The notes beneath the pieces were generated by a model. It was not told where the DNA came from. It saw only the letters and a list, made by a program, of their open reading frames with translations, and made no database searches. Both the position numbers and the translations under genes were made by a program. From Halobacteriovorax marinus SJ (GTDB taxonomy: Bacteria; Bdellovibrionota; Bacteriovoracia; Bacteriovoracales; Bacteriovoracaceae): 64,000 nucleotides of DNA. Positions 43,315-49,046 of the stretch are shown here, piece after piece. Positions within the stretch are counted from its first letter, which is position 1. Each line of letters begins with the position of its first letter. The stretch lies in assembly GCF_000210915.2 (NCBI RefSeq), contig NC_016620.1:1798001-1862000 (forward strand). The letters run 5' to 3'.

Positions 43315-43986
43315 ATGAACTTTATCGATTTAAAACCTGGCACATCTGTGGAAGGTGAAAATATTGAAGCCTTTAAAACTGAGGGAAAGGCCAAGAAGTA
43401 TGTCTACTTAATGGCGGGGACTCATGGTGATGAGGTAGAAGGCGTCTATGTAGTAAAGCAACTCTTTGAGTGGCTAAAGGCCCAAGTTGATATCGAACTC
43501 AATATGGTAGTCATACCAGTCCTTAATCCAGATGGGTATAGAAACGCTACAAGAGTAAACGCCAACGGTGTAGATCTCAATAGAAATTATGATAGTGGAA
43601 CTTGGTCTAGTGAGGCTCGTGAAGAGAAGTACTATCCAGGAACAGAACCTCTCAGTGAGCCAGAGAATAAATTTCTCATTGGATTATTTGAAAAATTTCC
43701 GCCAAAGGTAATTCTAAGCTTTCACTCATGGAAACCTATGATTAATTACAATGGTGATTGTAAAGAGATTGCTGAATTTCTAAGCCAGTATAATGGCTAT
43801 GTCACATGTGATGATATTGAAGGACACCCTACTCCAGGCTCACTTGGAGACCTAGGGCCTAAGAAGTATAGTAGCCCAGTACTCACTTTTGAATGTCCCG
43901 TACTAAATGATGAACTTAACCTAAAGCAAATCTGGCAAGAGAATGAAGCCGGTCTTAAGGCCTTATTCCAAAGCGACCTTCTCTAA
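43315..43986 (+). CDS. M14-type zinc carboxypeptidase, MpaA-like
   Basis: 223 residues, no signal peptide. The zinc pair is in AGTHGDEVEG (His37, Glu40), then NRNYD for substrate carboxylate binding, SFHSWKP for the third ligand, and LTFECP carrying the catalytic Glu. This compact form resembles MpaA murein-peptide amidase, which trims gamma-D-Glu-mDAP bonds in recycled wall peptides. A cytoplasmic role in digesting wall peptides is plausible, but related succinylglutamate desuccinylases cannot be ruled out. It ends 14 bases before an inverted repeat. Confidence 0.75.
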   Translation: MNFIDLKPGTSVEGENIEAFKTEGKAKKYVYLMAGTHGDEVEGVYVVKQLFEWLKAQVDIELNMVVIPVLNPDGYRNATRVNANGVDLNRNYDSGTWSSEAREEKYYPGTEPLSEPENKFLIGLFEKFPPKVILSFHSWKPMINYNGDCKEIAEFLSQYNGYVTCDDIEGHPTPGSLGDLGPKKYSSPVLTFECPVLNDELNLKQIWQENEAGLKALFQSDLL

Positions 43987-43997
43987 ATAAATTCCCG

Positions 43998-44039
43998 CTA
44001 CACCGAGAGAGCATCTCGGTGTAGACAATCTGACACCGA
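43998..44039. promoter_or_regulatory. ACACCGA half-sites: inverted repeat plus third copy
   Basis: A perfect 11-bp inverted repeat CTACACCGAGA/TCTCGGTGTAG with a 5-base spacer (43998-44024) is followed by another ACACCGA at 44033-44039. No T run follows on either strand, so it is a poor terminator. It lies directly upstream of the sigma-54 promoter and is a good candidate activator-binding site. Confidence 0.55.
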
Positions 44040-44045
44040 AATTCA

Positions 44046-44061
44046 TGGCACCTTTGTTGCA
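44046..44061 (+). promoter_or_regulatory. Sigma-54 (RpoN) promoter
   Basis: TGGCAC-N5-TTGCA with the invariant GG (44047-44048) and GC (44059-44060) separated by exactly ten bases, a full consensus -24/-12 site. Transcription would start near 44072, giving a leader of about 28 bases containing AAAGGAAG before the ATG at 44100. Confidence 0.8.
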
Positions 44062-44099
44062 GTATTATACTCAAGTATTACTTAGCAAAGGAAGTGTTA

Positions 44100-44951
44100 A
44101 TGAAGAGATATACCTCTACATTATTGATTTTACTTATGACATCGCCCGCAGCACTGGCAGCTTCAGTGTCGGCAACGAGTACATCTGTAAAAAAATTAGA
44201 CAACAGTGCCGGATTGTCCCTGGATAATGTGGGAATTTCTCTATCCAATACTTTCGCAACGGATATAAAGACACCAAACGCGGCCAACAAGAGTATGGTT
44301 AATACGACTGCATTAACAATTAGTTATAAATTAGACAGCACTACTAAGCTAACTCTCTCTACTATTTACGATAAAGACCTAGAGAATGACCGTGAAGGCT
44401 TAATTAGAGATCCAAAAATTGGACTCTCAAAGAGCTTTGGAAAGTTAAATAAGTATCTCTCAGCAGCTGCTTCAACATCTGCAAAGATTCCACTAAGTAA
44501 ATCGTCAAGAATTACTACGAGCTTACAGACTGGACTTAGTTTAGCGGGCTCTCTTACATATGATGCCTCTGAGCACATTCTTAGAGACCTATCGATTACT
44601 TATGCACCAGCTGCAATTGTAAATTTTCACAAGTATAGAGTGACAACAGCGGGTAGTTCAAATACTCAGTACACACTCTCAAATACACTTGCACTTAACT
44701 ATGGATTGACTGACATCGTCTCTCTGTCGGCAAGTGGAACATATTATAGAAACTTTGATTATACAGGTCACACAAAAGACTTCTTTGGAATTGAGCAAAC
44801 AGCATCGTTTGTTCTACCACAGAACTTCTCACTAAGTGTAGGACACGCTACTGGTGGATCGGCACTCGCCGTAAACGGTAGAGAATCAAACGTTAGTTTA
44901 TTTGACAGAAATTTATCATCATATTTTTTAAATATTGGCTTTAGCTACTAA
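44100..44951 (+). CDS. Outer-membrane barrel protein in the sigma-54 operon
   Basis: 283 residues from ATG 44100, selected over the in-frame GTG at 44094 because the ribosome site AAAGGAAG covers that GTG. The signal peptide ends near ALAAS. A Ser/Thr-rich segment with TSTSVKKL follows, then from about residue 35 alternating beta strands rich in Ser, Thr and Leu, ending FLNIGFSY. This resembles the barrel at 15033 in start and size. It may be a porin-like or anchoring partner of the large protease encoded 18 bases downstream. Confidence 0.65.
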   Translation: MKRYTSTLLILLMTSPAALAASVSATSTSVKKLDNSAGLSLDNVGISLSNTFATDIKTPNAANKSMVNTTALTISYKLDSTTKLTLSTIYDKDLENDREGLIRDPKIGLSKSFGKLNKYLSAAASTSAKIPLSKSSRITTSLQTGLSLAGSLTYDASEHILRDLSITYAPAAIVNFHKYRVTTAGSSNTQYTLSNTLALNYGLTDIVSLSASGTYYRNFDYTGHTKDFFGIEQTASFVLPQNFSLSVGHATGGSALAVNGRESNVSLFDRNLSSYFLNIGFSY

Positions 44952-44969: not shown

Positions 44970-47900
44970 ATGAAGAACAAAAACTATCTATTAACTTCTC
45001 TCATCCTTGCTGGACTTGTTGCAAGTTGTGCAAAGGAAAGAGAATTAGATACTGTTTACAAGGCGCCAGAAATCATGAGCAAGTCTGCCATCAATACAGA
45101 TGCAGAATTCCTCTATGTACCAACATCTCAGGGAGTTCCTAGATTTACTAAGGCAATGGCCCCATTCGTTCAAGGTAACGAGAAGATCATCAAGTTTAAA
45201 CTTGAAGAGGAAGGGATTGTTGCTTATGAAATGGAAAAGAATGAATCATTCGCCGACAATACTCTAAACAATAGACCTATTCTTACTATACCTGTTACGT
45301 ATAAGTCTTATCGTTGTGCTGAAAATGCTGACAAAGAATGTACGAATAGAGAAGAAGAAAACACTGAACTAGAGTGGTTTCAAAAAGACCAAATCATTCC
45401 TGACTTTGAGAAAGTAAAAGTTCTTGAAGCTGATAGTGTTGGTCTTCCAGAAAATAACGATACTTGTTTCTCTCTCCAAGGAACAAAGCTCGTAGATTAC
45501 GAAGTAACAAATACAGATCTTCATTTTGAAATTGAGAAAACATATAAGTTCTCAAATACACCATCATGTATCAACGAATTATGGTATAGCTCAGGAAGTG
45601 AGTACGATAAGTTTCTTGAAGGCCTAGACGATAACGGAGCATTTAACACGAGAGTGTTCTTCTCATTTGCTAAGCTTGATACAATTGCTTCTAAGAACTA
45701 TAAGTCAATTGACTATCCTGTTGAAGAGCACAGCACTTTTGGTTTCTTTAAAACTAAAGAAAGAAAGAAGAATGCTTTTGGACAAACAGAGAGATTCTAC
45801 AAATTAAATAGATGGAATCCAAAGAAGCAAGTTGTTGACTACTACTTAAGTAACGAGTTCAAGAAGAAAGAAAACAAGTATCTAAAAGATGCAACAATCT
45901 ATGCGTTCGATAGAATGAATAGAATTCTTGAAGATAATAAAGTTAATCTTAGACTTAAACTACATATGCCTGCAGACAAAAGTCCAGGTAATCTAAGAAA
46001 TACAATGGTTGTTCTTATTGAAGACATCGCCTCTACTCTACTTGGGTACGGTCCAACAGTTGCCAACCCTAGAACAGGTGAGATTGTAAAAGGTCACGTA
46101 AATATGTACAAGGGCTCACTTGAGTCAATTGCTCCAAGTGCCTACGACTCGATTGTATTCCTAGAGAAACAATTAAAGAAAGAAGCTATGAATAACGCTG
46201 CGATTGCACAGTCTTTAGTAGCACCGACAAAAAAAGCGACTGCAAATAAAATGCTTCAGAAGTTTGCAAAGAATAAACTTTCTCCAGAGAAACTTTCTCC
46301 AGAGAAACTTGCTGAGACTATTAAGTTAGTTCTAAGCAGTGGAGCAAAAGAAGATGCACACGGACATGATCACGGTCACAACCATGGACACGTTCAAGGA
46401 ATCTCTCACTCAAACGTATCTGCAGCTGCAGCTGGTTTGAAAGATTTCAAAGCATCAATTGATAAGAGATTAAGCGCTGACTACCAAGCACTTGTACTAG
46501 GTAAAATTAATGGTGAATTAAATGAGTTCACTAGAGAGATGAAGAATAATCTCGAAATAAAAGAACTTCTTCACAAGAACAGTGTTTATACAACTGATAT
46601 GGTTAACTTCCAGGCGCTAGGAAAGATTTCAGTTGATGAGATCAACACTGTTGCTGGAATTAGAGACCAAAGAGGAAACCTAAAGGACTGGATTCAATTA
46701 GAAGAATCTCAACAGAGAAAACTTATTAAGATTCTAGCACGTCATGCTTATATCCCAACTCTTGTTCACGAAATTGGACATAACTTAGGATTAAGACATA
46801 ACTTTAGAGGTTCTCTAGATGCAGCAAACTTCTATAATGAAGAAGAGAGAGCGAAGCTTGGAATTACTAGTGGTTCAGTATTCTCTTCAATTATGGATTA
46901 CTCTTACTCAAGCTTAAATGAGCTATCAACTTTTGGTAAGTATGATATTGCTGCTCTTAAATTTGGTTACAATAGAGAAGTTGAAGTACTAGACAAGCCA
47001 GGTGGAAAAGTTAGAAATATCTCTCTTGAAAGACAAGGTGTTGATGGGCAATCAACTGTTGAGATCAGTGTAAATAGTGTTGAGAACAGAGTTCAATATA
47101 AGTTCTGTACTGATGAAGACGTTAATATGTACGCTGACTGTAATAGATTTGACGAAGGTTCAAATGAACTTGAAATGACAAAGCACTACGCTGCTAAGTA
47201 CAAAGAGTACTACCAATGGCGTAACATGAAGAATAGATCTAAGAACTTCAATGATAGAATTGGAACTTGGAGATATTACTTAGGTACATACTATACTCTA
47301 CTTGATTTAAGACAAGCTCATGAGACATGGCAATTCTACAAGAGTTACCTTGCAGGATTTAATCTTGATCATTTAATGACTAATAAGTGTGGTCCACAAG
47401 ACCAGATTGATCCAGCATTTTGTAATACAATCTCAGAAGTTGTAGATGCTAATGATGTTGCAACAACAACACTCATTGAAATTCTAAAGACTCCTGATTT
47501 AACTTGTGACCTTAACTACTTCTTAGTTGATAATACAACAGAAGAGAGTGTATTCTCACACAGAGTGGCCACTAAATTATCAGAAGCAACACAATATAAG
47601 TCATACCCACTTGCCAATGGTAAAGGTGAATATAGAGCAACAAGTTGTTTTGATAGAAATGCTTTTGGAGACATCGTTAATAATAGAGAATCTATTATGG
47701 AAGTGGTTGAAGCATGTAATGCTCAACTAGGTGAAGAAGTTTGTTCAGATGACAAATTAGGTTTACGTGTTGCTATTGTTGGACAGGTTGGAAAACTTCA
47801 CAACGATGTTGATGCCGCTGATAGAGACGGTGAAAGACTTGAAACTGATGATATCGAAATTAGAGGAAACTGGATGGACAAAGTATTGGCCATGGAAATT

Positions 47901-49001
47901 CTAACTAATAGAGATAGATTAACATCTGCGGGAGAAAGTATTCACGCATCTTTTACAGATATGCCTAAGTACAAAGATGAAATTAAGAATATCATCGATC
48001 ACTTAGCACTTAATAAAACACTTAAAGACCCGTTAATGGCAGAAGATGAAAATGGTGTTAAGTATCATATGCCATTTGATACTGACTTACACGCAAAGAC
48101 AAAAGTGCCAACTATTAAGAGGTTCTTACAGCAATTTATCCCGTTCCCTGACTCAAAGGAATTCGATATTGCTCCAGTGCTTCTAAAGACTGCTGCTATT
48201 AACTCTTACGAAAGTGAGCACGATGCAGAGACGATTAGCCAATATGTTGCTAGATCAGAGTTCTTTGACTCGATTGTTGTAAGAAGAAATAATATTGCTT
48301 CATCAAGCATTGGATTTGGACCTGCAGTTGTAATGACAGCAAATGTACACAACTTCCAATACGGAGCAACAGCGAGAAATAAATTAGCACAAGAGAGTAT
48401 TGCGAGAATCAATGGTCTTACTACAGCTAGAAAAGATCAGATTGAAGCGGTTATGAGAGACCTCTCTAAACCAGTAGCAACAGAAGAGACTCCAGCAGCT
48501 GAAGAAGTACCAGCGGCTGAAGCTCAAGAAGTAGCAACTGCCGAAGAAGGACAGGAAGAGACTACAGAAGAAGAAGTAGCCGAAGAAGTTGTAAGTGAAA
48601 AAGCTGCTGAAGAAGCTGCTCAGGAAATCATCGAGATTTCGGCAGAAGTTAGAAATAATGTAGCTGCTATCGCTGCAATTAAGAGACACATGGCAATTTT
48701 CAACAAGCCAATTAACGAGTTTGTTGCCATCATATCTGCAAATGACGGAACTCCTCAAGGTCAAGCTGACACACAGGCCAAGGTTGCAGCGTTTAGAGAA
48801 AGAGTTGGAGCAGAGACTTTCAATACTGTTAACCAAGTCTTGGCAATGTTTAACCAGTACGCATCTTTAGATGTTAGATACGCTCAACTTGCAACAGTTG
48901 ATCTCTATGACCTAGACTTCGTTCTTTCAAGTGAAGAGCAGAGAAAAGAGATTTTAGAGAAAGAAGTTGATCTAATCTGGAGTCTACCAATCGTAGAATA
49001 G
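44970..49001 (+). CDS. Giant metzincin-type zinc metalloprotease lipoprotein
   Basis: 1343 residues. Lipobox LVASC with Cys20. The zinc site HEIGHNLGLRH (His600, Glu601, His604, His610) is the full HExxHxxGxxH metzincin motif, and SIMDYSYSS with Met642 is the expected Met-turn. The flanking HNFRGS and the TFGKYDIAALKFGY block resemble the large DUF5117/DUF4953 zinc-protease group. Other features are a histidine-rich stretch near 462-482 (HGHDHGHNHGH), a duplicated SPEKL motif (near 437-446), and a Glu/Ala-rich low-complexity region near 1170-1225. It is likely held on the outer membrane, or in the periplasm, as an endopeptidase. Expressed with the barrel gene from a sigma-54 promoter. Confidence 0.8.
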   Translation: MKNKNYLLTSLILAGLVASCAKERELDTVYKAPEIMSKSAINTDAEFLYVPTSQGVPRFTKAMAPFVQGNEKIIKFKLEEEGIVAYEMEKNESFADNTLNNRPILTIPVTYKSYRCAENADKECTNREEENTELEWFQKDQIIPDFEKVKVLEADSVGLPENNDTCFSLQGTKLVDYEVTNTDLHFEIEKTYKFSNTPSCINELWYSSGSEYDKFLEGLDDNGAFNTRVFFSFAKLDTIASKNYKSIDYPVEEHSTFGFFKTKERKKNAFGQTERFYKLNRWNPKKQVVDYYLSNEFKKKENKYLKDATIYAFDRMNRILEDNKVNLRLKLHMPADKSPGNLRNTMVVLIEDIASTLLGYGPTVANPRTGEIVKGHVNMYKGSLESIAPSAYDSIVFLEKQLKKEAMNNAAIAQSLVAPTKKATANKMLQKFAKNKLSPEKLSPEKLAETIKLVLSSGAKEDAHGHDHGHNHGHVQGISHSNVSAAAAGLKDFKASIDKRLSADYQALVLGKINGELNEFTREMKNNLEIKELLHKNSVYTTDMVNFQALGKISVDEINTVAGIRDQRGNLKDWIQLEESQQRKLIKILARHAYIPTLVHEIGHNLGLRHNFRGSLDAANFYNEEERAKLGITSGSVFSSIMDYSYSSLNELSTFGKYDIAALKFGYNREVEVLDKPGGKVRNISLERQGVDGQSTVEISVNSVENRVQYKFCTDEDVNMYADCNRFDEGSNELEMTKHYAAKYKEYYQWRNMKNRSKNFNDRIGTWRYYLGTYYTLLDLRQAHETWQFYKSYLAGFNLDHLMTNKCGPQDQIDPAFCNTISEVVDANDVATTTLIEILKTPDLTCDLNYFLVDNTTEESVFSHRVATKLSEATQYKSYPLANGKGEYRATSCFDRNAFGDIVNNRESIMEVVEACNAQLGEEVCSDDKLGLRVAIVGQVGKLHNDVDAADRDGERLETDDIEIRGNWMDKVLAMEILTNRDRLTSAGESIHASFTDMPKYKDEIKNIIDHLALNKTLKDPLMAEDENGVKYHMPFDTDLHAKTKVPTIKRFLQQFIPFPDSKEFDIAPVLLKTAAINSYESEHDAETISQYVARSEFFDSIVVRRNNIASSSIGFGPAVVMTANVHNFQYGATARNKLAQESIARINGLTTARKDQIEAVMRDLSKPVATEETPAAEEVPAAEAQEVATAEEGQEETTEEEVAEEVVSEKAAEEAAQEIIEISAEVRNNVAAIAAIKRHMAIFNKPINEFVAIISANDGTPQGQADTQAKVAAFRERVGAETFNTVNQVLAMFNQYASLDVRYAQLATVDLYDLDFVLSSEEQRKEILEKEVDLIWSLPIVE

Positions 49002-49013
49002 TAAAAAATAAGA

Positions 49014-49046
49014 GAGCACTTAGGTCTAACCTAAGTGCTCATTTTT
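49014..49046 (+). terminator. Rho-independent terminator of the sigma-54 operon
   Basis: Perfect 11-bp stem GAGCACTTAGG/CCTAAGTGCTC with a 5-base loop and ATTTTT. It starts 13 bases after the protease stop codon. Confidence 0.9.

Follow-up and report, generated by a model that had tools for sequence, protein, structure and literature searches.

What brings an operon for an outer-membrane barrel and a large metalloprotease under control is the question raised by a 113-nt gap in the Halobacteriovorax marinus SJ chromosome, which separates an M14 carboxypeptidase gene (stop codon at 43984-43986) from the barrel gene (start at 44100) and holds the promoter region. The gap was analyzed within a window of 64,000 nt (G000:C1:1798001-1862000; positions below are those of the window), taken from a genome, G000, of 3,437,906 bases in two contigs, the second of 1,973 bases. 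An earlier note on this DNA had proposed a sigma-54 promoter preceded by three activator half-sites, each reading ACACCGA. The reading we favor, to which we assign a probability of about 0.82, is that barrel and protease form a sigma-54 operon activated via a single dyad close to the promoter, and that the conspicuous inverted repeat further upstream is a hairpin belonging to the preceding transcript. The features of the locus are the following.

43315-43986, forward strand: upstream gene, Peptidase_M14 / AstE-AspA-like zinc carboxypeptidase, 223 aa (Pfam PF00246, E 3.7e-19).
43998-44024, forward strand: hairpin with an 11-bp stem and a 5-nt loop, probably the 3'-end hairpin of the upstream transcript (RNA fold, compensated pairs).
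44021-44037, no strand assigned: 17-bp imperfect dyad GTAGACA-ATC-TGACACC, proposed activator site, centered at about -43 (homologue conservation, dyad statistics).
44046-44061, forward strand: predicted sigma-54 promoter, -24 TGGCAC and -12 TTGCA separated by N5 (consensus match, conservation, genome-wide spacing control).
44072, forward strand: probable start of transcription, placed 12 nt past the -12 GC by established sigma-54 geometry.
44100-44951, forward strand: outer-membrane beta-barrel protein, 283 aa, 12 predicted strands (AlphaFold model, pLDDT 77).
44970-49001, forward strand: large metzincin-like zinc metalloprotease, 1343 aa, with HEIGHNLGLRH and a lipoprotein-like signal (PF16313, E 4.1e-10).
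49014-49040, forward strand: intrinsic terminator of the barrel-protease operon, 12-bp stem with a T tail (terminator scan).

The barrel-protease label that the earlier note had given to the downstream operon is strongly supported, and the 12-strand model of the barrel and its nearest solved folds in the PDB, FapF and the COG4313 channel (TM about 0.55-0.6), make it sound. In closer relatives, too, the barrel gene is followed by a gene for a large metalloprotease, and the HExxHxxGxxH motif of the protease is kept in 12 homologues. The fold search also placed the barrel closer to FapF, an amyloid secretion channel, than to ordinary porins.

The promoter itself proved to be the firmest part of the earlier proposal. 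The sequence TGGCACCTTTGTTGCA at 44046-44061 fits the sigma-54 consensus TGGCAY-N5-TTGCW with exact GG-N10-GC spacing, as had been claimed, and is the sole match to TGGCAC-N5-TTGCW in the window (0.03 expected). The closest relatives, G003 and G004, keep its -24 and -12 bases unchanged, while the five-base spacer varies freely (CTTTG, TTTAA and CCTAA across G000, G003 and G004). Family-wide, 27 of the 30 best barrel homologues have an upstream promoter match (score of at least 14.5 of 16), mostly 40-100 nt before a start codon, as do 16 of 40 more distant homologues at a score of at least 15. The spacing is also favored throughout the genome, where N5 is the commonest distance between TGGCAY and TTGCW, with 21 occurrences, above every other spacing from 1 to 12. 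Almost all of the other N5 sites (19/20) lie outside open reading frames of at least 100 aa, against 0/14 for the N6 control, and 16/20 are found 20-200 nt before an open reading frame. The genome encodes one RpoN, together with six enhancer-binding proteins whose GAFTGA loop is intact or nearly so; their genes lie near G000:C1 102481, 503402, 2933907, 3194481, 3272958 and 3366340. Polymerase carrying sigma-54 requires an ATPase activator. On this evidence the element is almost certainly a working sigma-54 promoter. Beyond it, G000, G003 and G004 share the 5' leader TACTCAAGTATTACTTAGCAAAGGAAGTGTTA (44068-44099) letter for letter, which exceeds the needs of ribosome binding alone.

The inverted repeat upstream of the promoter calls for a different interpretation from that of the earlier note. 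Both the repeat, CTACACCGAGA-GAGCA-TCTCGGTGTAG, and the three ACACCGA copies (44000, 44016 on the reverse strand, and 44033) are present as described. The repeat begins 11 nt past the M14 stop codon, and its predicted RNA fold has an energy of -19.3 kcal/mol (z -5.5). In G003 and G004 the same place is taken by a hairpin with a 7-bp stem of different letters: relative to G000, two of the seven stem pairs are changed on both sides (C-G to U-A and G-C to A-U), and all pair. This is suggestive of a hairpin kept by compensatory change among three sequences, with equally good compensation in 57 of 500 shuffles. Despite its stem, the hairpin lacks the T tract of an intrinsic terminator, with 2 T among the 9 bases that follow; at this position other genera carry conventional T-tailed terminators (e.g., GGCCCCACTTCGGGGCCTTTTT in G075). 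We infer that 43998-44024 is the 3'-end hairpin of the upstream carboxypeptidase transcript rather than a pair of activator half-sites.

Two other accounts of the promoter region have to be weighed against this evidence. If the three ACACCGA copies were the activator half-sites, with the inverted pair as main operator, the locus would offer a strong palindrome from -74 to -48 relative to the predicted start, and the symmetric changes seen in G003 and G004 could also arise in a palindromic binding site. Yet the inverted repeat preserves pairing and not letters, and ACACCGA is absent from the orthologous promoters of both relatives, which retain the promoter, a TGAC core and the 5' leader. A search for the motif within 110 bases upstream of the other sigma-54 promoters of the genome returned 0 of 20. 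In the window itself ACACCGA is mildly overrepresented (five copies in 64 kb versus 1.95 expected), two of these copies being the arms of one hairpin. We consider this account highly improbable. The conserved word is instead TGACACC or TGACTCC, which overlaps the third ACACCGA copy only, so that what survives of the earlier claim is a regulator site close to the promoter, now placed at the 17-bp dyad 44021-44037 in lieu of the three repeats. It is barely credible, in turn, that the -24/-12 match is coincidental and that the operon is transcribed from a sigma-70 promoter: the hexamer TATACT at 44066-44071 is one base from the -10 consensus, but it has no acceptable -35 partner, it is changed to AATACT in G003 and G004 while the -24/-12 bases are invariant there and conserved in the family, and no sigma-70-type promoter was found at the barrel upstream region.

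Evidence for the dyad emerged from aligning homologous promoters on their -24 box. A free, unanchored k-mer search of the upstream regions gave nothing above shuffles; once the regions were anchored and scanned with at most one mismatch, 14 of 27 homologous promoters showed TGRCWCC starting 14 or 15 nt ahead of the -24 box, against a mean background of 0.1 per offset. In 51 of 91 matches a complementary half precedes this word with a spacer of three bases (z 7.4, against at most 2.9 for any other spacer), which gives the consensus GGTGTCA-N3-TGACACC. In G000 the right half, TGACACC, occupies 44031-44037 and is overlapped by the third ACACCGA copy (44033-44039), and the left half is weak, with 4/7 matches. 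Matches to the strict extended pattern number ten across the 129 genomes, and eight of these sit at the barrel operon; the remaining two are a plausible promoter in G099 and a match within a coding gene in G100. About half of the homologous barrel promoters have no recognizable proximal dyad. In G012 and G139 the dyad pattern is matched at offset 55, but these matches resemble a terminator hairpin and were discounted as support. Several genera (G139:C124, G069:C27, G010:C5 and G099:C110) also carry a further GACTAAA/GACCAAA-like half-site about 20-21 nt, or two helical turns, before the right half-site.

The half-site is not confined to the barrel operon. Allowing 3-63 bases between the heptamer and a sigma-54 promoter, we found TGACACC at 44 places in 35 of the 129 family genomes, compared with 8 for a control in which the heptamer was mirrored and 0 matches in the same genomes when the whole pattern was read backwards. 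The offsets group at 14-15, 24-28, 34-39 and 42-45, and a periodicity scan from 10 to 11 bp peaks near 10.5 bp (p about 0.003 after the scan). Among 28 sites that lie beyond the barrel set the dyad is again detectable (z 5.8), mainly as CA-N3-TGACACC; C stands at position 6 in 20 of these 28 sites (p 9e-10). The p values are optimistic because the species are related. Many of the open reading frames downstream start, by eye, with a signal peptide. In G000 the other two such loci are a candidate small RNA, L083, and the L078 operon, where all five members of the genus keep the element, at an offset of 35 or 45 nt. The occurrence of the same half-site before other sigma-54 promoters, in this genome and across the family, suggests that the barrel-protease operon belongs to a small regulon.

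At L083 (G000:C1:2117688-2117703, reverse strand) TGACACC stands at offset 39 from a sigma-54 promoter, which is followed by about 180 nt without a convincing open reading frame that end in a 12-bp stem, GGCCTTGATCAG/CTGATCAAGGCC, with a T-rich tail. The locus is strongly conserved in G003 (L223) and gave no Rfam match, and we regard it as a conserved candidate for a sigma-54-driven small RNA. Two further sigma-54 promoters have no clear open reading frame within 200 nt, L084 (G000:C1:2220002-2220017, reverse strand), which reaches a T-tailed terminator after about 110 nt, and L074 (G000:C1:309563-309578, forward strand); these are likewise candidate small RNAs. Inspection by eye picked out a different palindrome, GTTCC-N6-GGAAC or GTTCYA-N4-TRGAAC, some tens of bases ahead of other sigma-54 promoters (L077, L082, L083, L085, L089 and L091); it is possibly the site of a second activator.

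In the mechanism that we propose, RNA polymerase with sigma-54 would be held in a closed complex at 44046-44061. An activator would bind the dyad at 44021-44037 and, placed at about -43 beside the polymerase on a fixed face of the DNA, would open the complex; the likeliest candidate for it is an enhancer-binding protein whose helix-turn-helix is of the Fis type. The two genes, encoding the outer-membrane barrel and the exported metalloprotease, would then be transcribed as one operon to the terminator at 49014-49040, and the hairpin 43998-44024 would be carried by the 3' end of the upstream transcript. That the dyad is the activator's site, contacted directly at -43, is consistent with its conservation upstream of the promoter and its helical phasing, both expected of an enhancer-binding-protein site; a center at -43 is close for an enhancer, and this counts against the proposal. 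The extension to a family-wide sigma-54 regulon of exported envelope proteins and small RNAs in Bacteriovoracaceae-like bacteria, governed by one activator that acts on GGTGTCA-N3-TGACACC from a fixed helical face and, at the barrel-protease operon, contacts polymerase from -43 without looping, is put forward tentatively, at odds well short of even. No gene for an enhancer-binding protein lies beside the barrel operon in the stretches examined from G000 or its relatives, and none of seven candidate activators scanned reached any listed curated NCBIfam cut-off, that of NorR included.

Rather unlikely, though less so than the accounts already set aside, is an arrangement in which an auxiliary factor, with either an activating or a repressing role, occupies the dyad and the enhancer-binding protein operates from another site or from solution. 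The dyad abuts the -24 box, unlike a classical looping enhancer, and the promoters that lack a proximal dyad nevertheless keep the sigma-54 element. Its precedent is the rpoS promoter of Borrelia burgdorferi, where BosR binds right beside the -24/-12 element and Rrp2 needs no enhancer (PMC3037356). On the other side, a 17-bp dyad with an N3 spacer has the form typical for sites of Fis-type enhancer-binding proteins, among them those with the NorR core GT-(N7)-AC (PMC1274295), and a spread of offsets from 14 to 70 that keeps to one helical face suits an activator that contacts polymerase.

Direct activation from the proximal dyad, if it works without looping, would make this promoter a clean system for studying close-range contact between a sigma-54 activator and polymerase. 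TGACACC provides a handle for finding the activator, and the promoter pattern, which falls almost wholly outside long open reading frames, yields a ready list of regulated genes. Our literature search on sigma-54 control in Halobacteriovorax and its lineage found nothing relevant.

Several known systems resemble parts of this arrangement. One is NorR, with its GT-(N7)-AC core, together with NorR2, whose GATGT-(N7)-ACATC sites lie immediately upstream of Vibrio promoters (PMC1274295): the dyad consensus, read as GGTGT-(N7)-ACACC, is likewise an inverted repeat with the same half-site spacing close to a promoter and fits the NorR core, although the window copy has GA, not GT, at the core's left end. 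The outer letters differ, there is usually one site here instead of a tandem, and the target is an envelope operon; no NorR orthologue was found among the seven scanned candidates, the best NF003451 score being 337 bits against a cut-off of 476. FleQ sites near flhA, fliE and fliL offer a precedent for positions close to the promoter (PMC6120874), with activation proposed, as here, from a site beside the sigma-54 element, but the targets in our case are not flagellar; the FleQ-related FlrA and Desulfovibrio DVU2894 recognize a GTCA-N6-TGRC repeat (PMC4641369), compared with GTCA-N3-TGAC here. BosR, whose site adjoins the -24/-12 element of Borrelia rpoS (PMC3037356), shares the placement of a regulator directly next to a sigma-54 promoter, but it is a Fur/PerR homologue that recognizes a direct repeat, whereas the site described here is an inverted one. 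Finally, in the computed sigma-54 regulome of Desulfovibrio vulgaris, promoters lie within 100 nt of the closest activator site, and activator motifs were inferred, as in our analysis, from sequence conserved before orthologous sigma-54 promoters; lineage and motifs are different, and activators there were largely assigned via neighboring genes, a route that fails at the barrel-protease operon (PMC4641369).
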